From Candidatus Bathyarchaeota archaeon (lineage in GTDB: Archaea; Thermoproteota; Bathyarchaeia; 40CM-2-53-6), in NCBI GenBank assembly GCA_005882895.1, contig VBBD01000016.1:1-39399 (forward strand): 39,399 nt of DNA. The letters are read 5' to 3'. A model generated the notes under the pieces. That model was given only the letters and a program-made list of their open reading frames with translations. It was not told the origin of the DNA and ran no database searches. Both the position numbers and the translations under genes were made by a program. Positions 13,702 to 34,757 of the stretch are shown in pieces (position 1 is the first letter of the stretch; each line of letters begins with the position of its first letter).

Positions 13702-15690
13702 TTGTCAAGGAATCCAGCCATAGTCGGGATACCCAAGGCTCTACTGATCACTGGCTTCATTTTACTGGGGTCATTATTGGCAGCTCCATTGGCGGCCTCT
13801 AACCATGAGTCTCATCCTACGGGTAATGCCCTAGCCCCATTGGCGAGCGCCCCGTTCGATCACATCGTTACGATTCTCATGGAGAACCAAGGGCTGTGTG
13901 ATGTATACGTTGGATGCGGAGGGTCGGCCGCATACATGAGTCAGTTCGCTAACCAAAACGTCCTTGTAATGACTTGGGGGACGACCAGTCACCCAAGCGA
14001 AGGAAACTACATCTCGCTAATCGGAGGAGACAATTTCGGCCACACGAATGACGGTTATTGTTGCTGGGGCATCAATGCACCGAACATCGTAGACAGGATG
14101 GAATCAGCAGGACTGACATGGAAGGCATTTGCTGAAGACGCTTCAGGCTCGGGAACCTGCAGTTTCAACCCACCCAGGGGGGCAGACCATTTCGCATTTC
14201 TGACCTTCGCGGACATGAACACTCCCGCAAGATGCGCGAACCTTCTCACCACAACATCATCCTCCGATACAGAATTTTTGAACTCCCTGAACTCGGCGAC
14301 TCCTGCGAACTTCATCTGGCTGACTCCGAACGACTGCAACAACATGCATGACTGCGGCATCGCAGCCGGAGACAGTTATCTTTCAAAGCTTGTTCCACAG
14401 ATTCTGTCAAGTAAAGAGTTCACCACCACAAAAGCTACTCTCCTGATCGTTTTTGACGAGGGATATACCGGATGTTCCAACACCGGGGGTACGGGAGAAT
14501 GCGTTTACGCCTCGTTCAGTGGTCCAGTAGCAAAGAAGGGACTACAACTTAGTCCGCCCGGTGCGTCTCACTACTCGTACTTGTCAACAATCGAAGCAGC
14601 CTGGGGACTAGCTTCGCTTACCTCCAACGATGCGGGAGCGCCAAACTTGCTCAGTGCTTTCGGCGCAATTTGTACAACCAACTGTCCTCTCGCGACGAGC
14701 TTCGCTTTCCTTCCCGCAAATCCATCAGTGAACTCGCTGGTCACTTTTACAGCGGTAACGACCGGCGGAATTTTACCGTACACTGTTAGCTGGAATTTCG
14801 GTGATGGAGGAAGCGGAACAGGACCTATCGTAACTCATACTTACACTTCGGCACAGTCGTTCACGATCACAGAGACTGCGAAAGACTCGTCTACGCCGAC
14901 GCAGACCGCCACAAGCTCTCAGTCTGTCACAATCTTTGCAATGCCCCAACTCTCCACAACCTTCCAGGCTTCCTCATCCTCACCCCAGGTTGGCCAAGCT
15001 GTAACGTTCACTGAGTCCGCGACAGGCGGAACCTCACCATACGCTTACACGCTAACGTTCGGGGACGGTGGAACTGGTACCGGAGACCCTGTAACTTACG
15101 CTTACTCTTCCCCAGGATCCTACACTGCCACAGTGACCGTTACCGACTCAGCCTCGCCACAAGCAAGTGTCTCGGCAAGCATGACCCTCAATGTACAGGC
15201 TCTAATCCCACCCACACTAACTGTTCCTGGAAACCAGACCGTCACAGCAGGAACATGGATCAACGTTACGGTCACAGCCTCATCAGTCAACATAGGCGGC
15301 ACCATCATTCTTTCAGCAACAGGGCTACCGGCGGGCGCATCATTCGACCCGACGACCGGGCTCCTATCCTGGAAACCCAGCACGAGCCAGACCGGATCTT
15401 ACGCGATCATTTTCACGGCCTCCGACAGCAGCTATCCATCCACCCCTACGAGCAAACCCATGGAAATTCAGGTAAACCAGGCCGCCCCAGGAGGGTCTAA
15501 TGGAGGAAACGGAGGTTCAGGAGGAGGCTCGAACGGAAGCTGCGCACTCTGCGGAATATTCCCGAAGATCTCCACCAGCATCGGTATTTTCGTTGTCGGG
15601 GGACTTCTTGGACTAGTTAGTGCCCTCGCAGTTCTCACAATCAGGACTCGGGCAAGTCTAGAACGAACAAGGCGACGGTTAGGAAATTGA
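13702..15690 (+). CDS. Exported phosphoesterase (pfam04185-like) with PKD repeats and C-terminal anchor
   Basis: The product is 662 residues from TTG 13702, with GGAGGT 11 nt upstream. A signal peptide (about 10-32) is followed by the phosphoesterase domain (about 48-325) with the family motifs MEN (60-62), NNMHD (His216-Asp217), FDEG (Asp252-Glu253) and HYSYLSTIE. The domain is Cys-rich. Two PKD domains follow (NFGDGGSGTG and TFGDGGTGTG), then a putative-Ig domain with GLPAGASFDPTTGLLSWKP, a Gly/Ser/Asn linker, and a tail CALCGIFP + helix + basic end. The family includes acid phosphatases and phospholipase C. The likely role is release of phosphate from organic substrates at the cell surface. 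It overlaps the next gene by 4 nt. Its last 333 residues match the GH5 protein at 32511. Confidence 0.88.
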   Translation: MSRNPAIVGIPKALLITGFILLGSLLAAPLAASNHESHPTGNALAPLASAPFDHIVTILMENQGLCDVYVGCGGSAAYMSQFANQNVLVMTWGTTSHPSEGNYISLIGGDNFGHTNDGYCCWGINAPNIVDRMESAGLTWKAFAEDASGSGTCSFNPPRGADHFAFLTFADMNTPARCANLLTTTSSSDTEFLNSLNSATPANFIWLTPNDCNNMHDCGIAAGDSYLSKLVPQILSSKEFTTTKATLLIVFDEGYTGCSNTGGTGECVYASFSGPVAKKGLQLSPPGASHYSYLSTIEAAWGLASLTSNDAGAPNLLSAFGAICTTNCPLATSFAFLPANPSVNSLVTFTAVTTGGILPYTVSWNFGDGGSGTGPIVTHTYTSAQSFTITETAKDSSTPTQTATSSQSVTIFAMPQLSTTFQASSSSPQVGQAVTFTESATGGTSPYAYTLTFGDGGTGTGDPVTYAYSSPGSYTATVTVTDSASPQASVSASMTLNVQALIPPTLTVPGNQTVTAGTWINVTVTASSVNIGGTIILSATGLPAGASFDPTTGLLSWKPSTSQTGSYAIIFTASDSSYPSTPTSKPMEIQVNQAAPGGSNGGNGGSGGGSNGSCALCGIFPKISTSIGIFVVGGLLGLVSALAVLTIRTRASLERTRRRLGN

Positions 15691-16874
15691 ACGTCGAAAC
15701 GAGACTGGGATCCATAGGTTCAGACTCGCGACACCACGCTACTCGGGTCCATGGGAGGAAGACCTCAACATTAAGAGCTCACCTGCTAGCTGCCATCCTG
15801 ATTATTGGGATTATCGCGATGCCTGCTCTGCCTATCGCACACGCAAGTGGGAGCGGCTTCGACAACATAATTATCGTCGCCATGGAGAATCAGAATTATC
15901 CTGACGTGATGGGGAACGGTACAGGCAGTACTAATGCTCCATTCATCGCAAGCATGCTGGCCGCAGGCTCGACCATTCCCCTCTACCACGGTTACGGTGC
16001 CGCTGGAAGGAGTATCACGGGATGCTCCGCCGGATGCTACACGGCACTCATCTCAGGCTCAGACCAGGGAATATCAGACGGATATTCATGTTGCATAAAC
16101 GCACCGACTCTCATGGACAAGATGATTTCTGCAGGTCTTAGCTGGCAGGCATATTGCGAAAGCGGATGCCCAAGGGGCAACGACCACTTCCCATTCACAG
16201 GATTTGCAAGCATAGCCAGTAGTCCAAACATATTCGCAAGCAGTAGTGTTTCAACAGCCGACTTTGTGGCTGCGTCAAATTCGGCAACCCCTCCTAACCT
16301 GTTGTGGTTCACTCCAACAGACAACCACAACATGCACGACAATAGCATACAAACCGGGGACACTTATCTACACAATTTTTTTGTTGGCTCAACCGGAAGT
16401 CTAGCCAGCCCGGCCCGCGGGTCCCTTCTAGCCAGTAACCTCTTCCAGCCAGGTGACAGAACATTATTGCTTCTCTGGTGGGACGAGTATGACCCAGCAC
16501 CGATCCTATTCTACGGGACAGCGGTCAAACACGGATTCATATCTTCCAGTGACGTTTACGACGAGTTCTCGATTCTGCACCTGATGGAAGACAACTGGGC
16601 TCTTCCAACTCTGACCTCCAATGATGCCGCTGCCTCGTCGATGACTGAGATCTTCGCATCGTCAACTCCACCTCCTGGAGGCTCAGGTGGAGGGTCCACC
16701 GCGTCAGGCGGCGGTTCGAGCGGGAACTGCCCGTTGTGCAGTCCCTTTCCTGGAATCTCCAGCACCGTGTGGCTAATCGTCATCGGTGGACTCGTGGGAC
16801 TCGCTGCCTCGCTTACCCTTATCACGATTAGAGCACAGGCGAATCTGGCTCGTACGAAGCGAACGATGAATTGA
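15687..16874 (+). CDS. Exported phosphoesterase (pfam04185-like) with C-terminal anchor
   Basis: The product is 395 residues; TTG 15687 overlaps the previous stop, so the two are translationally coupled. A long basic N-terminus precedes the signal helix (about 30-50, ending in AHASG). The catalytic motifs are AMENQNY (Met66-Asn68), HNMHD (His217-Asp218), WWDEYDP (Asp266-Glu267) and HLMEDNWALP. It has paired Cys clusters (GCSAGCY, SCCINAP, CESGCP). It has no PKD domains; the catalytic domain joins a Gly/Ser linker directly to the tail CPLCSPFP + helix + TIRAQANLARTKR (from 16728). Its closest relative is the gene at 22772, with which it aligns almost end to end. The likely role is surface acid phosphatase or phospholipase-like activity. 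Confidence 0.88.
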   Translation: MNVETRLGSIGSDSRHHATRVHGRKTSTLRAHLLAAILIIGIIAMPALPIAHASGSGFDNIIIVAMENQNYPDVMGNGTGSTNAPFIASMLAAGSTIPLYHGYGAAGRSITGCSAGCYTALISGSDQGISDGYSCCINAPTLMDKMISAGLSWQAYCESGCPRGNDHFPFTGFASIASSPNIFASSSVSTADFVAASNSATPPNLLWFTPTDNHNMHDNSIQTGDTYLHNFFVGSTGSLASPARGSLLASNLFQPGDRTLLLLWWDEYDPAPILFYGTAVKHGFISSSDVYDEFSILHLMEDNWALPTLTSNDAAASSMTEIFASSTPPPGGSGGGSTASGGGSSGNCPLCSPFPGISSTVWLIVIGGLVGLAASLTLITIRAQANLARTKRTMN

Positions 16875-16901
16875 GTTAGTGCCAATTATCAGCAGGCCCA
16901 A

Positions 16902-17025
16902 GAACTGACTCAGCCAGCGGATTGGCTCTCGCCCTGAGGAATGAGGCGAGTTGCAAATGTCTCGTGAAGATCGCGGCGCGCGAAAATCGAGCGCCCTAGG
17001 GGGTCTTGAAAAGCATGGTTATTTC
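16902..17025 (+). repeat. Direct repeat copy 2: fossil of HAD gene 3' end
   Basis: Copy of 12560-12680 located just after the phosphoesterase stop. In frame it still reads LTQPADWLSP and stop, against LTQLADWLAP and stop at the true HAD end, so it is a gene-end remnant with no gene in front of it. Confidence 0.7.
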
Positions 17026-17114
17026 GAACATAGATTGTTGGATTTGGAAGCCCAAGATCTAGCTTCGAGCGTTTCTCTGTGCTGGGAAGGAGCCTCGGTC
17101 CAAATGTAATAGTC

Positions 17115-17519
17115 TCACGATATGACTTCAACATGAACCAGGGTGGTTACATTTTCCCCGTATTGCTCTGTCTTCTGAACGCTGAGATAGTACGTTCCGC
17201 TTTGCTGAACACTAACGTTGAAGCCAGCTTGGGTGGCGTTTGTAACCTGCTTGTCAAAAAGATAGGTGGTCGCCGCCTGGTTCTGCTGATACCAGAACGT
17301 TACGAAGACAGGATACTGGACGGTGCTGACTGTGATGTTGACATTTCTGTTTCCGAGAACAAAGAGATCAAACTGCCACTGATGATTCTCCTTCAGCGTC
17401 AGGCTATCATCTACCAATACCCTTGGAACGTACTCAGAGTAAACATACGCCGCAACCGCTGAAACTATGATCACCGTCAAGAGTATGATGAGTGTCAGAA
17501 TCTTGTATCTCTTCTTCAA
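17115..17519 (-). CDS. Hypothetical exported or membrane-anchored protein
   Basis: The product is 134 residues. One N-terminal helix (about 6-27) acts as a signal anchor, and the rest is beta-rich with aromatic residues (WQFDLFVLG, VFVTFWYQQ, GTYYLSVQK) and several N-x-T sites, as expected for an exterior domain. No family recognised; the repeating beta pattern suggests a small sandwich domain. It lies 15 nt after the 220-residue membrane protein on the same strand and is probably the last gene of that operon. Confidence 0.7.
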   Translation of the reverse strand: MKKRYKILTLIILLTVIIVSAVAAYVYSEYVPRVLVDDSLTLKENHQWQFDLFVLGNRNVNITVSTVQYPVFVTFWYQQNQAATTYLFDKQVTNATQAGFNVSVQQSGTYYLSVQKTEQYGENVTTLVHVEVIS

Positions 17520-17534
17520 TGCCTGGTCACATTG

Positions 17535-18609: not shown

Positions 18610-18801
18610 GTCTTAGATCACTGTGTTAACCGGGCTCTCGATTCCCATGATCAACTTCATTTCCTCTACATAAAGACGGGGAGCATGAGAGCAACGTAAT
18701 TTCGGTTCAATGGGTACCGCACTTCAGAAGCAGACGGAGCTCTTCGACCTTGGTTTAGATAAACCGGCGCTCTGGAAGTTCCCTGAACGGGATCTGCGAA
18801 A

Positions 18802-20055
18802 TCAATCGTCTAGGCTCAACCCAGCAGAAGCCGACGCTAGGGACGACACGGATGAACGGTCAGATATGCCCTGGTCAAGACATCCGATTCTCATCACCCT
18901 TTTCTCTCTGGAATTAGTTGTGAGACGTCTCAACTGTTTGAGGAAAATCGCAGTTATCCCCGTCAAGATGGGGGCGTTAAACAACGAAACAAGGATTAGA
19001 TTGTGCTCGACAAGGTAGAGAAATCCCTCTAAGACTCCAGCAGGTTTGATTATGCTGAATGAGTCGGAGAACCTCCCCCAGAAGTCAGTCTGAGCACTAA
19101 TCTCCTCGGATGTTATGGTGTACTCAACGAACCCATGCCCCATTCCTGGAGTGTTGACACTTGCCAAACTAGCAAAGTAGGGCGCGTTCGGACTCGAATA
19201 ATTGATCGGATAGAACTCCTGCCCAAATGTCCCCGCAATAACGAAAATCGTTCCATGACCTTTCGTATATGTCCCTGATGATCCATCGTTCGCCACGCAA
19301 GCACTAGAGAACCGTTCAACGAAGGCGCAAGTCAACTGCTTGCTGCGCTGGTAGTTGTGGTCATGAGCCTGCAGCACTAGGTCGACCTTCTTTTGGATCA
19401 AGAAGTTCATCAAGTTCTCCCCACCTGGGCATGTGGGGTATATTCCGGCTGAAATGCAGGCTTTCGCCATTCCGACTATTACCCAGGGTATTCCAGAGGC
19501 TCTAGCCCTGTCTATCGTGCGGGACAACCATTCATAGTGTGAAGACCCAACATCATACGAGTAATATCCACCGTTGGTAAAATTCAGTTCGGGAGATATC
19601 ATTATGATTCGTGCGAGAGGACTAGAAGAGGGATAGTCAAAGTAGAATTCCTTTCCATAGACTCCCGTAGACCCCGTTCTGTCGGGGAGACAGTTCGCAA
19701 AATAGTCAATAAGCCCTCCATTGGTAGCCAACGATTCCAATCCGTCATCATGGGACCCTGATACCAGTTCGAAGGGGAAGGTTTGACCCACGTATGACTT
19801 TACAATACCGCACCATTTTGTCTCGTCACCTATGCTGGTGTAGCTCATGTCTCCGAGCGCCAGGTAGAAATTGACGTCTGATGATGCGAGGCGGTGGAGG
19901 GACGAATTTGTGTTGATATCCTGAGAATGATCCCCGGCCGCTCCGAAATGGAAGCTGGTGCTGCCAGAAGTTTCCACAGAATTACCTGTTGGAATTAGAA
20001 GGAACAAGAATAGAAGCGTGGCGACTATCAGGGAAGCTTTCTTCTTCTTTCTCAT
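18802..20055 (-). CDS. Exported calcineurin-like metallophosphoesterase, membrane anchored
   Basis: The product is 417 residues. A KKKK-preceded signal peptide occupies about 5-25. Metal-binding motifs of the family are present: GAAGDHSQD (first motif), LALGDMSYT (second), GSHDDG in place of the common GNHE/D, and LQAHDHNYQRS near 230. This order resembles purple acid phosphatase-type metallophosphoesterases. A C-terminal helix (about 350-375) with a basic tail anchors it. The GSHDD variant is unusual but keeps the His. It adds a second, unrelated phosphatase family to the pfam04185 enzymes in this island. It lies upstream of, and in the same direction as, the unknown membrane operon (192-nt gap). 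Confidence 0.88.
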   Translation of the reverse strand: MRKKKKASLIVATLLFLFLLIPTGNSVETSGSTSFHFGAAGDHSQDINTNSSLHRLASSDVNFYLALGDMSYTSIGDETKWCGIVKSYVGQTFPFELVSGSHDDGLESLATNGGLIDYFANCLPDRTGSTGVYGKEFYFDYPSSSPLARIIMISPELNFTNGGYYSYDVGSSHYEWLSRTIDRARASGIPWVIVGMAKACISAGIYPTCPGGENLMNFLIQKKVDLVLQAHDHNYQRSKQLTCAFVERFSSACVANDGSSGTYTKGHGTIFVIAGTFGQEFYPINYSSPNAPYFASLASVNTPGMGHGFVEYTITSEEISAQTDFWGRFSDSFSIIKPAGVLEGFLYLVEHNLILVSLFNAPILTGITAIFLKQLRRLTTNSREKRVMRIGCLDQGISDRSSVSSLASASAGLSLDD

Positions 20056-20106
20056 TCGAACTTTTCGCCTCTTAACTTGGAATCCAGCACGCAGATTGGT
20101 CGTGAT

Positions 20107-20379: not shown

Positions 20380-20496
20380 GTCCCTGACGCCTTATCTCGA
20401 CTCACCCGCCATTGTCTCTTGGAATTCCGATGAGACCCAGAGGGACACCAACCCTCATCGTGCTCGTCTTTAGCCGCCCACAAGCGATTAGTCGCA

Positions 20497-21024: not shown

Positions 21025-21034
21025 CTTGTCCGGG

Positions 21035-22764: not shown

Positions 22765-22771
22765 CTTGACT

Positions 22772-23908
22772 TTGAGAGCTCGGCTGCTTGTCGTGATGCT
22801 GATTGTTGGGATAATGGTGGTCCCTGTTCTGCCTCGGGTGCATGCGGCCCCGGGAACTAACTTCAACAACGTTGTGATTGTTGCCATGGAGAACCAGAAC
22901 TATGCCGATGTAATGGGTGCGGGTACCGGGAGCAGTAATGCTCCCTTCATCTCAGGCATGTTGGTTGCAGGGGCCACCGTTCCCCTCTATCACGCCTATG
23001 GTGCTGCTGGAAGGCCAGTGAACGGGTGTTCAGCTGGCTGTTACACAGCCCTGATCTCGGGGTCTGACCAGAGCATCGCGAATGGTTACAGTTGTTGTAT
23101 CAATGCGCCTACTCTCATCGACAGTATGGCCACCGCAGGTTTAACATGGACCGCCTTCTGCGAGAGCGGATGTCCGAGGGCCAACGACCATTTTCCCTTC
23201 ACAGGCTTCGCGGGCACTGCCAACAGTCCGAACATTATGGACAGCACCTGTTGTTCCGGTCAGCCCGACCCAGAGTTTGTGGCGCCGATGAACTCGGCCT
23301 CGCCTCCTAATTTGATCTGGCTGACTCCAACAGACAGTCACAACATGCACGACAATTCTATCCAATCGGGAGACTCATATGTCCATGATCTACTTGTAGG
23401 ACCATCTGGAACGTTGGCAAGTCCCGCCGCGGGCTCAGTTCTTGCAAGCAGCCTCTTCGCGTCAGGTCATAAGACTATGCTCCTTCTATGGTGGGACGAG
23501 TACGACCCGGCCCCGATCTTGTTCTATGGACCAGGGGTCGTCAAGCAGGCGTTCATCTCGTCCAGTGACGTCTATGATGAGTACTCGATTTTGCACCTTA
23601 TCGAGAACAACTGGGCTATGCCAACCCTGACCTCCAACGATGCCGCGGCCCTGTCGATGACAGAGATTTACGGATCGTCAACTCCGCCTACTTCTGGAGG
23701 AACAGGCGGAGGCTCTGGAGGAGGGTCAGGTAGCGGTTCGAATGGGAACTGCTTGTTGTGCGGTACGTTCCCTTCACTCTCTACCAGCATGTGGATGCTC
23801 GTCGTTGGTGGACTCGTGGGTTTCGTAGGCTCGCTTACCCTGATAACAATCCGAACTCGGGCGAATCTAGCCAGGACGAAGCGAAAGATGAATCGACTAA
23901 ATCACTGA
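22772..23908 (+). CDS. Exported phosphoesterase (pfam04185-like) with C-terminal anchor
   Basis: The product is 378 residues from TTG 22772, chosen because AGGAGG (22758-22763 region) is 9 nt upstream; TTG 22766 is only 3 nt from it. The signal peptide RLLVVMLIVGIMVVPVLPRV ends in HAAPG. Catalytic motifs are AMENQNY (Met39), HNMHD (His193-Asp194), WWDEYDP and HLIENNWAMP. Cys pairs match the 15687 protein, plus an extra STCCSG insertion. A Gly/Ser linker leads to the tail CLLCGTFP + helix + TIRTRANLARTKRKMN (from 23750). It is the nearest paralog of the gene at 15687 but carries the leader that precedes the gene at 13702. Confidence 0.88.
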   Translation: MRARLLVVMLIVGIMVVPVLPRVHAAPGTNFNNVVIVAMENQNYADVMGAGTGSSNAPFISGMLVAGATVPLYHAYGAAGRPVNGCSAGCYTALISGSDQSIANGYSCCINAPTLIDSMATAGLTWTAFCESGCPRANDHFPFTGFAGTANSPNIMDSTCCSGQPDPEFVAPMNSASPPNLIWLTPTDSHNMHDNSIQSGDSYVHDLLVGPSGTLASPAAGSVLASSLFASGHKTMLLLWWDEYDPAPILFYGPGVVKQAFISSSDVYDEYSILHLIENNWAMPTLTSNDAAALSMTEIYGSSTPPTSGGTGGGSGGGSGSGSNGNCLLCGTFPSLSTSMWMLVVGGLVGFVGSLTLITIRTRANLARTKRKMNRLNH

Positions 23909-24601: not shown

Positions 24602-26071
24602 CTATACTCCGAGAGGTGTAGCTGTGACCGCGACGGTCACAGTTGTGGTGCGGGTTACCCCACCGTTCGAGGCGGTGATCGTCACAATGTATGTTCCCGG
24701 TGTTGTGAGGAGTGACGCAGATACCGCCAACGTGGCCGAGTTTGTCCCGTTGGACTGAAGAGTCATAGACGATGAACTCAAGGATGCCGAGGGGTTGACG
24801 GGCGAGAGACCAGCTGTGATACTGGCCGGGGTCACCTGTGCCGCGAGACTCACATTACCAGAAAATCCGTTGAAGCTTGTCAACGTCAATGTAGACGTCC
24901 CGGACGATCCAATTGGGATGGATAGAGAAGTTGGACTAGCAGCTATGCTAAAGTCCATGATGTTTACTGTCACACTCACTGAGCGCGTCAGATTACCGCT
25001 TGTGCCACTTACAACGACGATGTAATTACCGGCTGACGGTACGGCAGTTGTGACGGTCAGTTGGGAGTAAGCGATATAGAATCCGTTCGATGGAAGCGCA
25101 ACGCTAGAAGGCGTCATTGATGCTGTAGGTGCTGCACCAACCGTACTGGCATTGGAAGCAGGCGATATCGCAGTTGAGAAAGACACGTTGCCAGAGAAGA
25201 GGTTGAAGGTGTTGACTGTGATGGTTGAACTGGCTGACTGGCCGGCTAGGACTCCCAAGTTGCTAGCACTAGCGCTGAGGTGGAAATCGGGGGCCCAGTA
25301 TGGAACTCTCCATGCTGTGAGAGGGTGTAGCTCCCATCCTGAGAAATTGTGAGTCGCCTCGTCGACACGGTCCTGGTCCCAGAATACGAATCCTTGGACA
25401 TCGAGCCCTGTTAGGAAGGCTGTGGTCTGCCCTACCAGCGTGTTATTGTCGCAGGAAGTGTATGGGCCACAGTAGGACGCTCCTTTCCAGTCATGATCGA
25501 TCTCCACGTGAATATTGTGCATGCATCCAGTGGTGTTGCTGGAATCGCAGATGCCGTATCCGGGAGTGAAGATGTTGAATGTCGAGTCGGATTGTGGACC
25601 GTTAGGATACTTTGTTCCGCCGTTCACCGGCATGAACGAGCTATTCCAGTCCTCCTCATTACGATAACCCCTCTGGACACCGTTTATCTGGACGAACGCT
25701 GAGACAACCTGTCCGTTCGCGTTTGTCATAGTACATGGCTGCCCCGGCGATATCCATCCCGGAGGCGTTGAAGACGTTGGGCTCAACCACCTTTTCGTAT
25801 TCTCCTGCCCGTAAGGCGAGGTTGTCCCCGGATTGAACATACTACCACCAAGTGTCGCCCCACCTAGCGGACTTGATTGATTCCCTATGATCTGTTCGAT
25901 TGTGACGAGTACCGGCGTGCAATTGACATTGGGGTTCCAAGAAGTCAATGCTCCTGTCGGGCTGTTGGCGGTCGGGACTGGTGAGGCGATTCCCGGGTGA
26001 GTGTACGTGATCATTGCTATGAGAACGCTGCAAGCGAGAATCGTCAATCTCCTACTCTTCGCGACACGCAT
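24602..26071 (-). CDS. Secreted HPLTAW-domain protein with Ig-like repeats
   Basis: The product is 489 residues from ATG 26071 (an upstream frame to 26182 exists but starts before the promoter-like CATATACT and a GGTAGG ribosome site). The signal peptide is RRLTILACSVLIAMITYTHP. The N-terminal domain (about 35-240) starts SWNPNVNCTPVLVTIEQIIG, contains a HVEIDHDWKG segment and closes with QGFVFWD and GWELHPLTAWR. The same domain opens the divergent gene at 26375. Two Ig-like domains of about 110 residues follow, each with a FSGNVSF/FSGNVSL strand and a TPGTYIVTITA ending. There is no C-terminal membrane helix, so it is probably released or bound by other means. Function of the N-terminal domain is unknown. 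Confidence 0.8.
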   Translation of the reverse strand: MRVAKSRRLTILACSVLIAMITYTHPGIASPVPTANSPTGALTSWNPNVNCTPVLVTIEQIIGNQSSPLGGATLGGSMFNPGTTSPYGQENTKRWLSPTSSTPPGWISPGQPCTMTNANGQVVSAFVQINGVQRGYRNEEDWNSSFMPVNGGTKYPNGPQSDSTFNIFTPGYGICDSSNTTGCMHNIHVEIDHDWKGASYCGPYTSCDNNTLVGQTTAFLTGLDVQGFVFWDQDRVDEATHNFSGWELHPLTAWRVPYWAPDFHLSASASNLGVLAGQSASSTITVNTFNLFSGNVSFSTAISPASNASTVGAAPTASMTPSSVALPSNGFYIAYSQLTVTTAVPSAGNYIVVVSGTSGNLTRSVSVTVNIMDFSIAASPTSLSIPIGSSGTSTLTLTSFNGFSGNVSLAAQVTPASITAGLSPVNPSASLSSSSMTLQSNGTNSATLAVSASLLTTPGTYIVTITASNGGVTRTTTVTVAVTATPLGV

Positions 26072-26160
26072 GGCGTGATGCTTCCTACCTTCTTCCGTCC
26101 TTATCCAGTATATGGGCTGGGCGTCTACAAAGTGTTCTAAGAGCACACATCTCGTCGCAA

Positions 26161-26179
26161 TTGTGTAGGAAATACACAA
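26161..26179. promoter_or_regulatory. Palindrome in divergent promoter region
   Basis: TTGTGTA (26161-26167), GGAAA spacer, TACACAA (26173-26179), a perfect 7-bp inverted repeat between the two divergent HPLTAW genes. It suits a dimeric regulator controlling both. Confidence 0.45.
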
Positions 26180-26181
26180 CA

Positions 26182-26269
26182 CTTGAAATCTCTACACTAT
26201 TATAGACAGCTCATCGGACGGCATGGAGTCGATTCCCGCGAGAATGGACTCGTTGTCTTGAAATCTCTA
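26182..26269. repeat. 13-bp direct repeat pair in divergent promoter region
   Basis: CTTGAAATCTCTA occurs exactly at 26182-26194 and 26257-26269, 75 nt apart (about seven helical turns). It may be a second regulator site. Confidence 0.4.
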
Positions 26270-26374: not shown

Positions 26375-29200
26375 GTGGACAGACTGAACAAATACTCGGG
26401 CCTCACTGTCTTCCCCTTGAGAACCAAAGTGGGTACGACAGTGAAAGGCGCGACTCGGATCCCTTCGCGACGAAAGAGGGCATTGACAAGTGCTATAGTG
26501 CTGTCTACCTTGATAATGTCTGCAACCCTGTTCCTGGCGCACCCATTCTCAGTCTACGGAACTACCGTCACTCCCGGCTCGCTTCCATCTTGGAACCCCG
26601 CTGTCTCGTGCACAGCACTACTAACGACCATAGAGGCAGTTATCGGTAACCAAGCAAACTCGAACGGCGGGGCAACCTTCGGAGGAGGTGGATTCCTGCC
26701 CGGCATTCCCAACAAGAGATCCACCACTCCTCCCTGTACAGTGAATGGAAACGCGACATTCGTCGAAATTCATGGGGTAAAGTTCCCGTCGAGCTACACA
26801 GTGGAGGATTGTGCCTCGTATCCTAACGGGAACTTTTGTGATACTACGTTTAATGTTCAAGATCCGAACTGCGCCAATTCAGACGTCTACTTATGCACGA
26901 TTCACTTGGAGATAGACCAGGCTTGGAAGTCAGCTGGCATTGCTCCAGGAACCCCGCCCGTCAGCTCTCAGCTCTTCAATATTCAGGGCTTTGTCTACTG
27001 GGATCCCAACAACAATAGCCATTTTGCCGATCAGTGGCACAGCTACTCTGGCTGGGAGATTCATCCTCTCACTGCGTGGAGACTATCGAGCGGTAGCACG
27101 ACGGCCAGCTTCACCTATTCTCCAGCGTCACCGTCCACTGGATCTCAAGTCTCGTTCACTGCCACCGCGTCCGGCGGAACGCAACCGTACAGTTTCAGCT
27201 GGAACTTTGGGGACGGCTCAACTGGAACAGGCTCCACCGCAACTCACGCCTATTCCGCGGCGGGTTCATACACCGTGGTCCTTACGGTCAAGGACAGTAG
27301 CTCCCCTCAACAAACCGCCACATCACAACAGACTCTGACGGTAACCAGTCGTCCTCCTCCCCCTTTGACCGCTAGCTTCACTTACAGTCCGTCCTCGCCT
27401 GTCGCTGGCCAGCAGGTGACTTTCACCGCTTCCGCATCAGGTGGAACTCCTCCATACTCTTTCGCCTGGAATTTCGGCGACGGGTCCACTGGCATAGGGG
27501 CTACTGTAAGTCACACTTACGGGACCGCGGGGACTTTTACGGTTACTCTCACGACGAACGACAAAGGGTCACCACAGCAATCAACGAATTCTCAACAATC
27601 TCTGACTGTTGCAAGTCCACCTCCGCCTGCTCTAACCGCCAGTTTCACTTACACTCCTTCAAACCCCAACGTTGGACAGACAGTCTCCTTCGCCGGTTCC
27701 GCGTCTGGTGGAACACAACCCTACAGCTACTCCTGGACGTTCGGTGACGGTGGAACCGCTTCTGGAAGATCCGTCACTCATTCGTATCAAGCTGCTGGAA
27801 GCTACAATGTTGTCCTTACTGTCACCGATGCGCCTGGCCAGACCGCAAATTCAGCACAGACGGTCACAGTCTCTAATCCGCCGCCTCCACCGCTGACTGC
27901 AAGCTTCAGTTACGCACCCGCCTCACCTCTAGTGGGACAACAAGTAACGTTCACTGCTTTAGCGACTGGGGGAACAGCTCCCTATTCGTTTAGCTGGAGT
28001 TTCGGTGATGGTTCAATCGGTACGGGCTCTAGCGTCAGTCATGTCTACTCTTCCCCTGGAACATTCAACGTCATCTTGATAGTCAGCGACAGTGGTTCGC
28101 CTCAGCAGACTGCGAATTCGCAACAATCAGTCACCGTTTCTAATCCACCACCTCCTCCTCTGACGAGCAGCTTCAGCTACAGTCCAACGTCACCGCAGGT
28201 TGGCCAACAGGTTAGCTTCAGCGGCTCAGCCAGCGGTGGAACATCACCTTACTCTTTCAGTTGGAGCTTTGGCGACGGAACAACCGGGACCGGATCATCC
28301 ACAACTCACACCTACTCCTCCGCGGGGACCTTCAATGTTATCTTGACAGTAAGCGACAGCGGGTCACCCCAACAGACGTCAAGCTCTCAAAACTCAATCA
28401 CTGTAACAAGTCCACCCCCGCCACCCTTGACCGTTAGTTTCGCTTTCAGTCCTTCTTCGCCTCAGACGGACCAGCAGGTTACGTTTACAGCGTCGGCCAG
28501 CAGCGGTACGACTCCATACTCGTTCAGTTGGACTTTTGGCGACGGCTCAAGTGGTACTGGTTCCACAGTGACACATGCCTACGCATCGGCAGGAACCTTT
28601 ACGGTTGTCCTCACGGTGAAAGATAGTGGGTCGCCGCAACAGACGGTAACTTCTCAACAATCAGTCACTGTCACTAGCCCGCCTCCGCCGCCTCTGTCGG
28701 CTAGCTTCACCTTCAACCCCTCATCACCTAATGTCGGACAAAGTGTCTCGTTCACAGGCTCAGCCTCCGGGGGCGCTCCTCCATACAGCTATTCCTGGAG
28801 CTTTGGAGACAGTGGAACCGGTTCAGGAAGCTCGGTCAGCCACACGTTCCAGTCAAATGGGGCCTACACAGTGGTACTGACAATTACCGACTCTTCGGGC
28901 CAGACCGCAACATCATCTCAGACAATAACCGTGAACTCTCCGCTCTCCGCGAGCATCTCGTACTCTCCCTCAAACCCAACAGTTCTCACACCTGTTATGT
29001 TCACTGGTAGCGCGACCGGGGGGACTGGATCCTACACCTACAGCTGGGACTTTGGCGATGGAACAACAGGCACCGGATCCAGCGTCAGCCACATCTATCT
29101 GCTCCCAGGAACATACACTGTAACCTTGACTGTTACTGATGCGAATGGACAGACCGCGACTTCAACCGTAACCGTTACTGTCAGTCTGCCCTTGGTTTAG
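26375..29200 (+). CDS. Secreted HPLTAW-domain protein with eight PKD repeats
   Basis: The product is 941 residues with a GTG start. A basic N-terminus (about 1-36, ending RRKRALTS) and signal helix (about 36-55) are followed by the HPLTAW domain (about 65-240: SWNPAVSCTALLTTIEAVIG, CTIHLEIDQAWK, QGFVYWD, GWEIHPLTAWR). Eight PKD domains of about 85 residues then run to the C-terminus, each with a (W/S)xFGDGxxGTG core, mostly joined by Pro-rich PPPPPL linkers. There is no membrane helix at the end. PKD domains usually act as spacers or protein/glycan binding modules on the cell surface. It is divergent from the gene at 24602. Confidence 0.85.
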   Translation: MDRLNKYSGLTVFPLRTKVGTTVKGATRIPSRRKRALTSAIVLSTLIMSATLFLAHPFSVYGTTVTPGSLPSWNPAVSCTALLTTIEAVIGNQANSNGGATFGGGGFLPGIPNKRSTTPPCTVNGNATFVEIHGVKFPSSYTVEDCASYPNGNFCDTTFNVQDPNCANSDVYLCTIHLEIDQAWKSAGIAPGTPPVSSQLFNIQGFVYWDPNNNSHFADQWHSYSGWEIHPLTAWRLSSGSTTASFTYSPASPSTGSQVSFTATASGGTQPYSFSWNFGDGSTGTGSTATHAYSAAGSYTVVLTVKDSSSPQQTATSQQTLTVTSRPPPPLTASFTYSPSSPVAGQQVTFTASASGGTPPYSFAWNFGDGSTGIGATVSHTYGTAGTFTVTLTTNDKGSPQQSTNSQQSLTVASPPPPALTASFTYTPSNPNVGQTVSFAGSASGGTQPYSYSWTFGDGGTASGRSVTHSYQAAGSYNVVLTVTDAPGQTANSAQTVTVSNPPPPPLTASFSYAPASPLVGQQVTFTALATGGTAPYSFSWSFGDGSIGTGSSVSHVYSSPGTFNVILIVSDSGSPQQTANSQQSVTVSNPPPPPLTSSFSYSPTSPQVGQQVSFSGSASGGTSPYSFSWSFGDGTTGTGSSTTHTYSSAGTFNVILTVSDSGSPQQTSSSQNSITVTSPPPPPLTVSFAFSPSSPQTDQQVTFTASASSGTTPYSFSWTFGDGSSGTGSTVTHAYASAGTFTVVLTVKDSGSPQQTVTSQQSVTVTSPPPPPLSASFTFNPSSPNVGQSVSFTGSASGGAPPYSYSWSFGDSGTGSGSSVSHTFQSNGAYTVVLTITDSSGQTATSSQTITVNSPLSASISYSPSNPTVLTPVMFTGSATGGTGSYTYSWDFGDGTTGTGSSVSHIYLLPGTYTVTLTVTDANGQTATSTVTVTVSLPLV

Positions 29201-29293
29201 CGTTAGTTATGCCTGGCATGCAGCTGAGTTCACATCCCCTTCGGCCTGGTAAGATGGTAAAGCGTTCGACGACGAGTCGAGTAGGTTGGCCAA

Positions 29294-30958
29294 GTGTTAA
29301 GATCGATGATAACTCGTAGTTTCCTAGTCGTCCTAATCTGCTTAATCCTAGCATCTAGCATGCTGCTTGCGCCAACTCTCAGAAACTCGAATAGACAAAG
29401 TTCTGACTTTGTGAAGGGTTCCGAGACGGCCCCTACATCATGCAGCACGAACTGCCCCGCACAGCGACCGCCTGTCATGATTGGTTGGGGCGGTTTGAGG
29501 TTGGATTCGGCCACGACAACCTGTTCAACTGTTTGCTACCACAACTCGACGTATGCGGCGAGTAGCGTTTTCCCGGGACAAAATCAAAGCGACATGGAAA
29601 GGTTGGTAATCCGGATGAAGTCTATGGGATTGAACATGATCAGAGTAAGTTTCGCGCCGTACTGCACGGAACCTGCCGGCGATCGAGACGATAGTCCTTA
29701 CTCTTTCACCGATGCCCAGAATATGATCAAGATCGCGAACTACTACCACTTCTGGATCGTGCTGCGGTATGATGGAAACGAGGATATATCCACTGCTACA
29801 ACTTGCTGGCTCAGTTACTGGCAACCCATCGTACAACAAGTCGGACCACAATACGACCTGATTGTCTGGGAGCCCATTAACGAACCAAACGCGTCCGTGA
29901 CACTACTGTCCTCGACATACCAACAATGGATCAACATGGCAAGAGGCACAGGGGACCAGCACTTCATCGTCGTGGAGAATCAGTGCAGTAGCAAATGCCC
30001 GTACTCGGACCTGAGCCAAGGATACCCAACAGTAACTGACCCGCTGGGCAAGGTCTTGATAAGTCTGCACAATTACATGTCATACCTCTATTCAACGTGG
30101 ACCACGCCTGCTGCGATTTCGCATGCTCAACAGGATTATCAAGCAGTACTCAAGGGTGAACTGGTTACAGGGTGGTATGCACTCGATACTGAAGGTGGGG
30201 CCGACCCCCAAGTCCCTACCTGTAACGGTCCAAATGGCACAACATCAGGATGCCCGCCTGACGACATACTTCCTGGATCGGCCGGATACGCTAACGTGTC
30301 ACTAGCCTTTATTCAGAAACTAACACAGTTGTTTGATAATAACAATCCGAGAATAAACTGGGTGTGGTGGCCGGCGGGGACGTGGACAGATACTCCCTGC
30401 GCAGGAACGTATGGTGCACTGCAGCCAGTCTCTTGTCCCGGAGGTACAGGTTACAAAGGAGGGGTTGGTTGGGGTACACTGCTCAACTACATACCTTTGG
30501 CCCCGTTATCTGCGATTTTCAATTTCTCGCCTCTAGCTCCATCGGCCGGAACAATAGTATCCTTCAACGCGATTGGGTTGGGGGGAGCTCCACCCTACAG
30601 TTTCAGATGGGACTTCGGAGATGGCACTACATCTGACGTCGTTACGTCGACTCATTCTTACGCGAACCTTGGACACTACACAGTAATTCTAACTACGAAT
30701 GATAGTTCGGATCAGACAGTGTTTGCATCGCAGGTCGTAGACGTCCACGCGCGGCAACTCCCCGAGAATCAGCCCGGTGGGAGCATATGCCTGCCTTGTT
30801 TCTTTACCCCTCTGCTACCAGTGTTTTTCCTCGTGGGGATAGGGACGGCCTACTGGTTTCTTACAGTTGCAGGCTTGAATTTGACGAGGAATCATTTCCG
30901 GACTGATGGACGAACGTCCTCGCAAGGACAACCCTCCGGAAAGGAAAGACCCGGTTAG
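29294..30958 (+). CDS. Exported GH5-like glycoside hydrolase with PKD domain and membrane tail
   Basis: The product is 554 residues from GTG 29294 (ATG 29306 is an alternative). The signal helix is at about 8-26. A Cys-rich pre-domain (SCSTNCP, TTTCSTVCYHN) leads into a TIM-barrel region about 40-400 with GH5 marks: MIGWGGLRL, NMIRVSFAPYC, the acid/base Glu197 in VWEPINEPN and the nucleophile Glu300 in ALDTEGG. The enzyme family cleaves beta-glucans, mannans and similar polymers. A PKD domain (WDFGDGTTSD) follows, then CLPCFFTP, a membrane helix and a less conserved tail. It is a paralog of the gene at 32511, but its tail has diverged from the TIR-type consensus. Confidence 0.85.
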   Translation: MLRSMITRSFLVVLICLILASSMLLAPTLRNSNRQSSDFVKGSETAPTSCSTNCPAQRPPVMIGWGGLRLDSATTTCSTVCYHNSTYAASSVFPGQNQSDMERLVIRMKSMGLNMIRVSFAPYCTEPAGDRDDSPYSFTDAQNMIKIANYYHFWIVLRYDGNEDISTATTCWLSYWQPIVQQVGPQYDLIVWEPINEPNASVTLLSSTYQQWINMARGTGDQHFIVVENQCSSKCPYSDLSQGYPTVTDPLGKVLISLHNYMSYLYSTWTTPAAISHAQQDYQAVLKGELVTGWYALDTEGGADPQVPTCNGPNGTTSGCPPDDILPGSAGYANVSLAFIQKLTQLFDNNNPRINWVWWPAGTWTDTPCAGTYGALQPVSCPGGTGYKGGVGWGTLLNYIPLAPLSAIFNFSPLAPSAGTIVSFNAIGLGGAPPYSFRWDFGDGTTSDVVTSTHSYANLGHYTVILTTNDSSDQTVFASQVVDVHARQLPENQPGGSICLPCFFTPLLPVFFLVGIGTAYWFLTVAGLNLTRNHFRTDGRTSSQGQPSGKERPG

Positions 30959-30982
30959 ACTGACGCTTTCCCCGTTTATCGA

Positions 30983-31060
30983 GCGATTCCCGAGCGATTT
31001 TCCAAGCGAAATTTTGCGGTAGGCTCAGGTTCGGAATCGGGACTGAAAATAGGCGATTTC
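30983..31060 (+). repeat. Dispersed intergenic repeat, copy 3
   Basis: Same strand and length as 11500-11577; shares GCGAT, CGA(A/G)CGATTTT-like, GCGAAATTTT and ATAGGCGATTT blocks in order. It lies 25 nt after the GH5 stop. Confidence 0.5.
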
Positions 31061-31225
31061 GTGTCTGAGGGAGTGTTAGACCACATTCTCTCCCCGACAA
31101 TTGTAAGTCTTGGGTTGCTGTCGATACAGTAGGATTGCTTTTGCCTTATCTTCGAAAGGTTGGATTCACACTCGGCATCAGTGTTTACCCCTCCAAGTCA
31201 CAATTCACCAGTTGTGTCTAGGAGC

Positions 31226-31234
31226 GTTTAATAT
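31226..31234 (+). promoter_or_regulatory. TATA box for the acyltransferase-like gene
   Basis: GTTTAATAT lies about 50 nt before ATG 31281, with a predicted transcription start near 31255. Confidence 0.4.
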
Positions 31235-31280
31235 CTGGCTTGACGATTGGTCTACGCACAAAATGTTGTGGGGTTAGTCC

Positions 31281-32183
31281 ATGCTGATGGAATCATTGCC
31301 TCCACTGAATGACAACTCAACGCTCAGACCTATCAAATTTGCAAATCTGAGATTTGCGCGTGGTGATGATTTTCTCTATCGTTTCGACAGGGACTCGATT
31401 GACGAGGCCAGATCCCTCGGAGCTGACGTGCTTGTCTTTTGCGACAGGCCATGGCTCGGGGAATCAGTCCAGTTTCCCCTAACTGACAGAATAGAGATAG
31501 CATTACTATCTTTCAGAAATTTCGACGAATGGTTTAACGGTCTGAAAAAGGACACACGGAATGAGATTCGAAAGGGAAGTAAGAGAGGAGTCGAGACCAA
31601 AGTCATAGAGAAGTTATCGGTCTCCGAAGCACAGGAAATTGTGAGCCTATTTCGAGAGTCTCCATTCAGAGAGGGCCGATACTTCGAGGGCTACCATCAC
31701 TGGACTCTCAAAAGAGTAATGGAATCATTCAAGACAAATGACGAATTCGTCTCGATTGCTTCCGTTTACGAGGGAAAAATTGTCGGAGTCGCTAGAACAA
31801 AATTCAAAGGACCGGTGGGAGTTATCAACAATCTTCTTTCCAGCCTTGAAGTGAGACGAAAAATTATTGGCGTCTCCAATTCATTGCTGGCAACTCAGAT
31901 CAAGATGCTGAGCTACCGAGGAGTAAGCCATCTCGCCTATGGAAAGATGGGGGTCTTAGGAGGCCTAGACCACTTTAGGATAAGTAACGGGTTCAGGTCA
32001 GTCCCAGTTAACTACAACTACGTTCTTCTAACCAGAAAGGCAAAGGTATTCGCCAAGTTCAGGATTTACCAGCCACGAGACTTGATCTTCTCGACGAAGC
32101 TTCGATTCGTTGTTCCCCTATCGATCCCTCTGCAGAAACACATTCCGATAAGACTAATTCAGAAACTCCATTTGTACGCCTGA
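31281..32183 (+). CDS. FemAB/GNAT-like acyltransferase
   Basis: The product is 300 residues. The layout (a conserved KKDTRNEIRKGSKRGV basic helix, then FREGRYFEGYHHWTLKRVM, a core strand SIASVYEGKIVGVARTKF and a C-terminal FRISNGFRSVPVNYNYVLLT) matches FemAB-like or GNAT-fold enzymes that transfer acyl or aminoacyl groups, often during exopolysaccharide or envelope synthesis. It sits between two GH5 genes, consistent with surface polymer metabolism, though its substrate is not visible. Base content is more AT-rich than its neighbours by eye, which may indicate separate origin. Confidence 0.75.
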   Translation: MLMESLPPLNDNSTLRPIKFANLRFARGDDFLYRFDRDSIDEARSLGADVLVFCDRPWLGESVQFPLTDRIEIALLSFRNFDEWFNGLKKDTRNEIRKGSKRGVETKVIEKLSVSEAQEIVSLFRESPFREGRYFEGYHHWTLKRVMESFKTNDEFVSIASVYEGKIVGVARTKFKGPVGVINNLLSSLEVRRKIIGVSNSLLATQIKMLSYRGVSHLAYGKMGVLGGLDHFRISNGFRSVPVNYNYVLLTRKAKVFAKFRIYQPRDLIFSTKLRFVVPLSIPLQKHIPIRLIQKLHLYA

Positions 32184-32510
32184 ATTCACTCTTTTTGTGG
32201 GGGTCGAACACGTCAGCAGCTGCCACGTGTCAACCTAGTACACGAACCCTAGTCTGAAATGTTCCCTGCCACAGGATCACTCAAGTGGAAATCCGGTTCG
32301 GCCAAGAGTTCAAACTACAATCCACACTACTGTACCCACTAGACTAGGCAACTATACCCATACCCTTCAAGACGGGTTAAGAGAAACCTATCCTTTTCGA
32401 CACCGATATATCTATCGCCGTAGGATTCGTCTCTCTCCCGGAGTTAGTTGTCCTTCGGTTACCGTGAGACGCGGGAAAACGTCTGACGCCATTCCGAATC
32501 GATTGGTTGA
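32184..32510. other. Intergenic region upstream of second GH5 gene
   Basis: No gene seen. A GATATATC-like TATA element lies at 32405-32412, about 100 nt before ATG 32511. No copy of the phosphoesterase leader is visible here. Confidence 0.4.
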
Positions 32511-34757
32511 ATGTTGAAATTGGTAGGAACTCGCCGCCTCCTAGGCCTCCTGACCTGCTCAATTCTAGTGGCTAGCTTGCTGTTTGCGCCAACTCTCAAG
32601 GGCCCGAGTGGGGACGTGGGTCAAGCCTTCCTGAAGGGTTCCTCGATGACTAGCACCTCATGTAGCACGAACTGCCCGCCTCAGCAACCTCCCGTGATGA
32701 TTGGTTGGGGCGGTTTGAGGTTGGATTCAGCGACGACCACCTGTTCAAGTGTTTGCTATCAGAACTCGACTTATGTGGCAAGCAATGTTTTCCCGGGACA
32801 AAGTCAGAGCGATATGGAAAGACTGGTTGTCAGGATGAAGGCTATGGGACTGAATACGATAAGGGTGAGTTTTGCGCCCTATTGTACGAACCCTAGCGGG
32901 GACCCAAGCGATAGTCCGTACTCGTCGTCTGATACCCAGAACATGATCAAAATTGCGAACTATTACAATTTCTGGATCGTCTTACGCTACGACGGTGACA
33001 GTGACATATCCTCAGCTACGACTTGCTGGCTCAATTATTGGCAACCCATCGTACAGCAACTGGGACCGTTGTACAGTCAGATTGTCTGGGAACCAATCAA
33101 CGAGCCAAGCGCGTCGGTAGCGACACTGTCTTCGGCATACCAGCAATGGATTAACATGGCCAGACAGTCAGGCGACCAACACTTCATAGCAGTGGAAAAT
33201 CAGTGCAGTAACAGCTGCCCATATTCAGATGTGAGCCAAGGTTATCCAACCGTTACTGACCCTCTGGGCAAGGTCTTGATCAGCCTACACGACTACATGT
33301 CTTACCAGTACTCAACCTGGACCATACCTGCGGCCATATCCTATGCTCAACAAGATTACCAAGCCGTGCTAAAAGGAGAGCAAACGACAGGTTGGTTTGC
33401 ACTAGATACTGAGGGTGGCCCCGACCCTCAATCACTTACTTGCAACGGTCCAGGTGGCACGACATCTGGGTGTCCACCTGACGACATACTACCAGGGTCC
33501 GCTGGATACGCCACCGTGTCACTAACATTCATCCAAACACTAACACAGTTGTTTGATAATAACAATCCGAGAATAAACTGGGTGTGGTGGCCAGCAGGGA
33601 CATGGACAGATACTCCCTGTGCAGGTACCTACGGTGCGCTGCAACCAGCCAATTGTCCGGGAGGTGCCGGCTACAGCGGAGGAGTTGGATGGGGCAACCT
33701 TCTCCAGTACATGCCAGTCGGCGGGACCCCACCTCCTGCTCTCTTGACGAGCTTCACTTTTCTGCCTACCAGTCCGCTAGTCAACTCACCAGTCTCCTTC
33801 ACGGCAATAACCACGGGCGGAGTCTTGCCATACACCATCACCTGGAATTTCGGCGACGGAGTGACAAGCACTGGAATTACAGCCACCCATACCTACACTA
33901 CCGCTCAATCGTTTACAGTAACAGAAACAGTGACGGACTCATCTAGTCCAGTACAGACCTCAACCAGTTCTCAATCTGTAACCGCCTACACTAGCCTCCC
34001 ACTCTCCACGACCCTTGCCGTCTCATCACCCATGCCCGCGGTTGGCCAAACCGTAACATTCACTGCGTCCGCGAGTGGCGGAACAGCACCCTACACTTAC
34101 ATGATAGCATTCGGCGACGGGGGAATCGGAACGGGAAATCCTGTAACCCACGCTTACAATGCCCCAGGATCTTACACTGCCAAAGTGACAGTCACTGATT
34201 CAGCTTTGCCTCTAGCGAGCGCATCAGCAAGCAAATCCGTGAACGTACAGGCTTTGGTCCCGCCTACACTTGCAGTTCCTGCAAACCAGACGGTGGTCGC
34301 GGGAACCTGGATCAACTTTACCGTTACAGCCGCATCTGTCAACACAGGTGGCACTGTCATCCTGTCAGCAACGGGGCTGCCGGCCGGGGCGACCTTCGAT
34401 CCCTCAACTGGAGTCTTCTCTTGGAAGCCCAGCTCAAGCCAGACAGGGTCCTACACGATTGTTTTCATCGCTACGGACAGCAACTCTCCTTCTACGCCTA
34501 CGAGCCAACCAATGGGAATTCAAGTAGACCAAGCCGCCCCCGGAGGATCTAACGGAGGAAACGGAGGCTCAGGTGGAGGCTCGAACGGGCCCTGTTTCTA
34601 TTGTGGAATATTCCCCACGATACCGAGTGGCATCGGGCTCCTCGTCATCGGTGGGCTCCTCGCGCTGATCGCCTCGCTCGCCTTGCTTACGATCAGAACT
34701 CGGGCGAGTCTAGAGCGTAGGAAGCGAAGAATGAACCGGTTAACCAGTGAAGACTGA
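32511..34757 (+). CDS. Exported GH5-like glycoside hydrolase with PKD-PKD-Ig module and C-terminal anchor
   Basis: The product is 748 residues. The signal helix at about 8-25 is followed by a GH5-like barrel (about 40-405) with NTIRVSFAPYC, acid/base Glu198 in VWEPINEPS and nucleophile Glu301 in ALDTEGG. A module of 283 residues begins at 33744: PKD (NFGDGVTSTG), PKD (AFGDGGIGTG), a putative-Ig domain (GLPAGATFDPSTGVFSWKP) and a Gly/Asn linker. The tail from 34593 is CFYCGIFP + helix + TIRTRASLERRKRRMN. From 33744 onward it aligns without gaps to the end of the phosphoesterase at 13702. Likely a surface-bound glucanase or mannanase. Confidence 0.88.
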   Translation: MLKLVGTRRLLGLLTCSILVASLLFAPTLKGPSGDVGQAFLKGSSMTSTSCSTNCPPQQPPVMIGWGGLRLDSATTTCSSVCYQNSTYVASNVFPGQSQSDMERLVVRMKAMGLNTIRVSFAPYCTNPSGDPSDSPYSSSDTQNMIKIANYYNFWIVLRYDGDSDISSATTCWLNYWQPIVQQLGPLYSQIVWEPINEPSASVATLSSAYQQWINMARQSGDQHFIAVENQCSNSCPYSDVSQGYPTVTDPLGKVLISLHDYMSYQYSTWTIPAAISYAQQDYQAVLKGEQTTGWFALDTEGGPDPQSLTCNGPGGTTSGCPPDDILPGSAGYATVSLTFIQTLTQLFDNNNPRINWVWWPAGTWTDTPCAGTYGALQPANCPGGAGYSGGVGWGNLLQYMPVGGTPPPALLTSFTFLPTSPLVNSPVSFTAITTGGVLPYTITWNFGDGVTSTGITATHTYTTAQSFTVTETVTDSSSPVQTSTSSQSVTAYTSLPLSTTLAVSSPMPAVGQTVTFTASASGGTAPYTYMIAFGDGGIGTGNPVTHAYNAPGSYTAKVTVTDSALPLASASASKSVNVQALVPPTLAVPANQTVVAGTWINFTVTAASVNTGGTVILSATGLPAGATFDPSTGVFSWKPSSSQTGSYTIVFIATDSNSPSTPTSQPMGIQVDQAAPGGSNGGNGGSGGGSNGPCFYCGIFPTIPSGIGLLVIGGLLALIASLALLTIRTRASLERRKRRMNRLTSED

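Follow-up and report, generated by a model that had tools for sequence, protein, structure and literature searches.

A C-terminal tail with a paired-cysteine motif on phosphoesterases and GH5 proteins of one Bathyarchaeota family

The MYXO-CTERM signal consists of a Cys motif (generically GCGC), a helix and an Arg-rich end, and is cleaved after presumed lipidation, as outlined in PMC11980579. According to the description in PMC8416519, another candidate sorting motif occurs in Thermococcales. Here we describe a C-terminal tail containing a CxxC motif (two cysteines separated by two residues), which is repeated on predicted exported enzymes encoded in a stretch of Candidatus Bathyarchaeota archaeon DNA (assembly GCA_005882895.1; contig VBBD01000016.1, positions 1 to 39,399, forward strand; hereafter, the window). 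Our literature search found no description of this tail, and a related signal may be among the further Cys-containing CTERM signals of Haft 2024. We propose, with a probability of about 0.5, that the tail is a lineage-specific, swappable and probably uncleaved type-I membrane anchor whose two juxtamembrane cysteines work as a pair.

An earlier note on this DNA had located four such tails and a diverged form, CLPCFFTP, in a fifth gene. All four translate as stated and align without internal gaps, and CLPCFFTP of the 29294 gene (genes are named by their first position in the window) was found at 30788. C1, C4, F7, P8, V18, G20, G21, L22, L29, T33, I34, R35, A38, L40, R42 and R45 are invariant in the four tails. 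When a profile of the four tails was built, as the note had suggested, it recovered the three held-out copies of the same genome (G000; 86.6% complete) with E-values of 4.4e-24, 2.9e-23 and 1.3e-18. These copies lie in tandem on another contig (G000:C23) and belong to two PF04185 proteins and one GH5 protein (Pfam). The next three matches in the genome had E-values of 0.55, 0.60 and 1.04. Because the profile found copies outside its own seed, the tails are more than a chance resemblance.

The hosts had been described as unrelated surface enzymes. Inside the window this did not hold, as 13702, 15687 and 22766 all encode PF04185 proteins, and four unrelated enzymes were ruled out by this shared family, by 67% identity between 15687 and 22766 and by 71% identity over 333 amino acids (aa) between 13702 and 32511. 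The window thus contains two catalytic types, not four: three PF04185 hosts and a GH5 protein that has a module in common with 13702. The sharing of the tail across PF04185 and GH5 was borne out. The similarity between 13702 and 32511 begins at the first PKD domain and reaches the C-terminal end, indicating that catalytic domains of unrelated types have exchanged a C-terminal module, and the tail with it.

When 50 hosts of a 65-tail set (see below) that retained their start and at least 150 aa were clustered by their N-terminal parts, we obtained clusters of 34 (PF04185), 6 (GH5), 5 and 2 members and three single open reading frames (ORFs), at least one of which starts just before PKD repeats. 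The cluster of 5 includes an unnamed domain, which is also seen without the tail in the 26375 protein of the window. In relatives, the tail is therefore found at the end of three or more unrelated kinds of host, PF04185, GH5 and the unnamed domain, and is not limited to close paralogs. Further, tails and hosts do not share one history. In its catalytic part, 13702 has 82% identity to one G007 gene and 32% to the neighbour of that gene, whereas the corresponding values for the tail are 71% and 88%. Between 29294 and 32511, identity is 83% in the GH5 domain, and BLAST gave no alignment of their tails. The tail is thus a separable C-terminal module on enzymes that, judging by their signal peptides, are exported.

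Some other arrangements of these genes were noted. Positions 1606-5793 of L083 encode a 1396-aa PF04185-GH5 fusion with PKD repeats and a CxxC tail at the end. The unnamed Cys-containing domain (SWNP-V-C ... WE-HP-TAWR), which has no Pfam match of its own, is common to window positions 24602-26182 and 26375-29200, and a relative of it is combined with a CxxC tail in L078; the AlphaFold2 model of the 24602 protein was unusable (predicted local distance difference test score, pLDDT, 28.8). By eye, a closely similar signal peptide, LRARLLVV-LI-GIIAVP-LP-AHA, was seen on PF04185 and GH5 hosts (22766 and 15687 in the window; 2482, 4664 and 7917 in L033). Since this signal peptide is common to both host types, both gene ends look exchanged or recently duplicated.

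We examined the distribution of the tail in 38 genomes of the order, 21 of which belong to one family. Using the seven copies of G000 as a query, tails were detected in 17 of the 38 genomes, all within this family. A profile of 32 CxxC tails detected tails in 18 of the 21 family genomes, and the order sample accordingly comprises 18 tail-bearing and 20 tail-less genomes. By our count, 16 genomes of the family have tails with CxxC, 2 have Cys-less tails alone and 3 have none. When the same profile was run against the class as a whole (256 genomes), a further 16 genomes outside these matched weakly (E-values of 6e-4 to 0.01), and the two of these that were inspected were both plain helices without CxxC. 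In a sample of 398 genomes from the phylum, 4 genomes of the family matched, together with 2 from outside it that did so weakly (E = 2.3e-4). PF04185 was present in 20 of the 38 genomes, every one in the tail family (20/21), and in 0 of the other 17. As a separate observation, PF04185 phosphoesterases are expanded in G000 and its relatives G001-G019, each of which has 3 to 12 places that match the family. Proteins related to that of 22766 were found at 11 loci in Candidatus Bathyarchaeota and Crenarchaeota metagenome-assembled genomes, which appear from their sample names to come from soil.

The idea that many unrelated exported proteins of one genome carry the tail was not borne out. A 445-kb sample of G000 including the window yielded 29 ORFs that combine a signal with a C-terminal helix, of which 7 had CxxC and 22 lacked it; the filter overlooked 32511 and the C23 gene for a GH5 protein, both known to bear the tail. 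The sole one of the seven beyond the two clusters was another PF04185 protein, on C83. These results suggest that the anchor belongs to an enzyme set and not to the surface proteome at large, as far as sampled.

The cysteines were counted in two sets of tails. The profile of the seven copies gave 58 matches, and removal of an internal one (G006:C132:7365) left 57 C-terminal tails. The wider set of 65 adds six weaker profile matches and two tails spotted by eye (G000:C83 and 29294), and excludes three weak matches (G012:C68, G183 and G242), which are plain helices without CxxC; profile A5 was built exclusively from CxxC tails. In 52 of the 57 tails, CxxC lay near the helix with exactly two Cys, three had no Cys there and none had a single Cys. 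The remaining two had only C-x3-C about 20 residues before the helix, which we read as the end of a catalytic domain resembling that of 13702. In the wider set CxxC was present in 59 of 65 tails, and the six without it look, as judged without a tree, like three separate losses. The distance from CxxC to the helix was 8-11 residues in 49 of the 59 tails and -5 to 6 or 18-19 in the others.

In the alignment of the 57 tails, Cys-less ones included, ten columns were at least 80% constant. These were the Gly two residues before the first Cys (50/57), the Cys (54/56 and 52/56), a helix Leu (52/57), three helix glycines (52/57, 48/57 and 55/57; the first and third form GxxxG) and, beyond the helix, Ala (48/56), Leu (53/56) and Arg (46/56). 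When 50 full hosts were aligned, the Cys, the GxxxG glycines and the post-helix Leu were likewise among the most constant columns. The persisting core thus comprises G-x-C-x2-C, a GxxxG within the helix and a Leu beyond it. The C-[GS]-x-F-P motif given in the earlier note describes the four window tails and is not general, as F was present in 17 and P in 30 of 39 tails. This 39-tail set had been selected for CxxC, for G/S, G/A/S and G/A at the helix glycines and for a single register.

The ratio of nonsynonymous to synonymous substitution rates (dN/dS) in the 39 tails was 0.47 in the linker, 0.52 in the juxtamembrane stretch, 0.31 in the helix and 0.32 in the post-helix segment (whole-tail median 0.32; 148 of 741 pairs with usable dS), and the motif value of 0.22 is biased and the Cys and Gly constancy partly imposed, because these tails were preselected for them. 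The analysis was repeated with the 57 tails without that preselection (312 of 1596 pairs), giving values of 0.25 (motif including its Cys), 0.45 (motif with the Cys excluded), 0.52 (linker), 0.49 (motif-to-helix stretch), 0.30 (helix) and 0.28 (post-helix segment). With its Cys, the motif was constrained approximately like the helix and the post-helix segment. Without them it approached the linker (0.45 vs 0.52), indicating that the cysteines themselves are held, not the motif as a whole.

These values bear on whether the tail is simply an ordinary membrane helix that was copied with a gene family, its Cys inherited and not functional. The detection of the tail in one family only, the many paralogs among its hosts, the tails without CxxC and the constraint on helix and post-helix segment, as strong as that on the motif, all agree with such an origin. 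However, the Cys columns are kept while the remaining motif drifts like the linker, and silent changes are present at the Cys codons (26 TGC/TGC, 22 TGT/TGC and 4 other among 52 tails). Further, CxxC is kept in tails whose helix and flanks have diverged, and the 83% identical GH5 domains bear different CxxC tails. We therefore consider a non-functional origin of the Cys distinctly improbable.

The earlier note had also proposed a dedicated attachment system, with an archaeosortase-like or thiol-oxidase partner gene. Such a system was not supported, and no partner was found among the five families searched (PF09721, PF04203, PF01694, PF02517 and PF07884); partners of unknown family were not sought. 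Exosortase/archaeosortase PF09721 was present in 17 of the 38 genomes, 1 of the 18 with the tail (G004) and 16 of the 20 without it, and was not found in G000 itself, 86.6% complete as noted; being commoner in tail-less genomes, it was ruled out as a tail-specific partner. Sortase PF04203 (found in 0/38), rhomboid PF01694 (38/38) and CPBP PF02517 (35/38 at E <= 0.001; 17/18 with and 18/20 without the tail) were likewise ruled out, as was the sporadic VKOR PF07884 (4/38; 3/18 with and 1/20 without the tail). The VKOR-bearing tail genomes are G004, G005 and G016, and G005 and G016 show Cys-less tails alone.

The PF09721 contrast is a strong argument against the tail being a substrate of an archaeosortase/exosortase-family transpeptidase in the manner of PGF-CTERM. 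Motif, helix and basic end do stand in the same order as in such substrates, but the best CTERM-type match was just PFE_CTERM (E = 0.025, in 5 of 32 diverse tails), and we regard this explanation as already largely refuted and very unlikely.

In myxosortase-like sorting, one Cys would be lipidated and the helix then cut off by an intramembrane protease, so that the enzyme ends up anchored by a lipid. The order of the parts is that of MYXO-CTERM as described in PMC11980579, and a CPBP protease gene is present in nearly all tail genomes. However, CPBP is equally common in tail-less genomes, and it was not found in the tail-bearing G001, which is 80% complete. The single CPBP of G000 had no myxosortase-family match at E <= 1, and that of G007, the other genome whose CPBPs were scanned, scored 17.3 bits against a cut-off of 100. 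The MYXO-CTERM model TIGR03901 matched none of the 4 window tails and none of the 32 diverse tails at E <= 10 with HMMER filters on, whereas the TraA peptide, used as a positive control, scored 20.6 bits (cut-off 20). Further, no tail retains just one Cys, and a post-helix segment constrained as strongly as the helix is odd for a discarded peptide. Myxosortase-like sorting is thus unlikely, although less so than the transpeptidase.

We favour a retained anchor because the post-helix segment is conserved, the distance from motif to helix is variable and no dedicated processing enzyme was found. After export by its signal peptide, the enzyme would stand on the cell exterior at the end of a Gly/Ser/Asn linker, which many hosts combine with a PKD/Ig stalk. 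A single C-terminal helix would pass through the membrane into the conserved basic cytoplasmic segment without cleavage. In the AlphaFold2 model of the 22766 protein (mean pLDDT 62.7), residues 302-339, which include the CxxC (329-332), form a linker of low confidence. Residues 340-379 follow as one helix, which would span the membrane and extend over the basic end. The two juxtamembrane Cys would most likely form a disulfide within CxxC, or else two inter-chain disulfides, which might hold two anchors together along with the GxxxG face of the helix; this dimerization is the most speculative step.

Alternatively, a CxxC, alone or together with that of an adjacent chain, might bind zinc or another metal beside the membrane. 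Zinc-knuckle halves resemble CxxCG, the Cys are present both or not at all, and 18 of the 39 tails have G directly after the second Cys. The tail has no other conserved metal ligand, however, and by the predicted topology the site would be outside the cell, where the Cys of the hosts appear paired. A metal clasp is thus rather improbable.

Two counts relate to the proposed pairing, although they are not independent evidence, because the hosts are related, and no probability can be read from the first: the number of Cys upstream of the tail was even in 42 of 44 complete hosts, and GxxxG was present in 55 of 65 tail helices vs 4 of 13 control helices, hand-picked from the 22 non-CxxC candidates of the 445-kb survey. 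One odd-Cys host has three Cys ahead of its signal peptide, explained by an overlong start. In the 445-kb sample, by comparison, the number was even for 51 of 122 non-membrane ORFs and for 13 of 19 ORFs with a signal. Even host Cys fit exported disulfide-bonded proteins, to which the tail would add one further pair, and the GxxxG enrichment makes pairing of helices plausible.

Besides this dependence among hosts, several points weigh against a retained anchor with a working Cys pair. Other signal-bearing ORFs lean to even Cys too. CxxC is not essential to anchoring, since 5 of 57 and 6 of 65 tails do without it. MYXO-CTERM, likewise built of three parts including a Cys motif, is cleaved, in the account of PMC11980579. 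The PF09721 contrast (1/18 vs 16/20) follows a single clade and so is possibly one event. Finally, VKOR, one possible disulfide maker, is present in just 3 of the 18 tail genomes.

A broader proposal is that the tail is a Cys-dependent surface-display module of one Bathyarchaeota family, in which CxxC is chemically active in covalent dimerization, lipid attachment or redox-controlled release of scavenging enzymes; we offer this tentatively, as possible and not as expected. In the genomes with the module, archaeosortase is mostly not detectable. To our knowledge this would, if true, be the first archaeal C-terminal attachment signal based on a Cys pair. The tail provides a recognizable signature for membrane-held phosphoesterases and GH5 enzymes of uncultured archaea, and a lineage with little detectable archaeosortase has another exchangeable C-terminal anchor. 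Further, because the Cys are present both or not at all, the role of the pair can be tested directly.

Table 1. Tail-bearing genes of the window, with their C-terminal modules and tails
Feature	Position	Strand	Basis
PF04185 phosphoesterase, 662 aa, TTG start; PKD, PKD, He_PIG, Gly/Ser/Asn linker, CxxC tail	13702..15690	+	Pfam
C-terminal module PKD-PKD-He_PIG-linker-tail, common to GH5 protein 32511	14689..15690	+	71% over 333 aa
Tail copy 1, CALCGIFP; CxxC, GGLLG helix, basic post-helix segment	15541..15690	+	translation, alignment
PF04185 phosphoesterase, 395 aa; start overlaps stop of 13702 gene	15687..16874	+	Pfam
Tail copy 2, CPLCSPFP	16728..16874	+	translation, alignment
PF04185 phosphoesterase, 380 aa, 67% identity to 15687 protein	22766..23908	+	Pfam, pairwise comparison
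Tail copy 3, CLLCGTFP; modelled helix 340-379	23750..23908	+	translation, alignment, AlphaFold2
GH5 protein; catalytic part 83% identical to that of 32511, tail different (CxxC and helix)	29294..30958	+	Pfam, BLAST
Diverged tail CLPCFFTP; shares just CxxC and hydrophobic stretch with 32511 tail	30788..30958	+	no BLAST alignment
GH5 protein, 748 aa; PKD, PKD, He_PIG, linker, CxxC tail	32511..34757	+	Pfam
C-terminal module in common with 13702 protein; alignment reaches residue 743 of 748	33741..34757	+	pairwise alignment
Tail copy 4, CFYCGIFP	34593..34757	+	translation, alignment

Elsewhere in the window, a Metallophos protein (18802-20055) and one in L188 (14800-16005) have alike C-terminal ends by eye. 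Both lie close to CxxC-tailed phosphoesterases, a possible conserved neighbourhood on two contigs. Positions 6937-10719 encode a membrane protein followed by MoxR-type ATPase-like and DUF58-type-like genes (by eye). A sequence search of PDB gave no credible relative of the phosphoesterase (best E = 0.014, mostly Gly/Ser linker matches) and a single weak match for GH5 (E = 0.085). Foldseek with the 22766 model found nothing at E <= 0.001, and the best matches were alkaline-phosphatase-like, for example LtaS (E = 0.009).

As the earlier note had anticipated, the tail had no good match among described sorting models. Besides PFE_CTERM, LPXTG_anchor matched 3 of the 32 tails (E = 0.096), and Pfam gave just sub-cut-off matches (LapA_dom, E = 0.0019; DUF6724, E = 0.029). 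On sequence grounds, the nearest known design is MYXO-CTERM, of which the tail is no member as judged by model match. As far as the myxosortase system (TIGR03901, MrtX) is described in PMC11980579, both occur on surface proteins of various kinds and have a Cys motif, a helix and a basic end in the cytoplasm; the tail differs in not matching the model, in a C-x2-C pair in place of GCGC, in its conserved post-helix segment and in being archaeal, and no dedicated CPBP of the myxosortase type was found for it. With PGF-CTERM/archaeosortase signals it shares a C-terminal motif, a helix and a basic end on exported archaeal proteins; in contrast to these, it has no PGF-type motif, and PF09721 was not found in 17 of the 18 tail genomes. 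Hydropathy, ORF reading and AlphaFold2 gave the features of a type-I single-pass protein, namely an N-terminal signal, one C-terminal helix and a basic inside end. Like ordinary C-terminal type-I anchors, the tail has a stop-transfer helix, a basic inside end, a stalk and a low-complexity linker; unlike them, it has a conserved juxtamembrane CxxC and GxxxG and is exchanged between unrelated enzymes.

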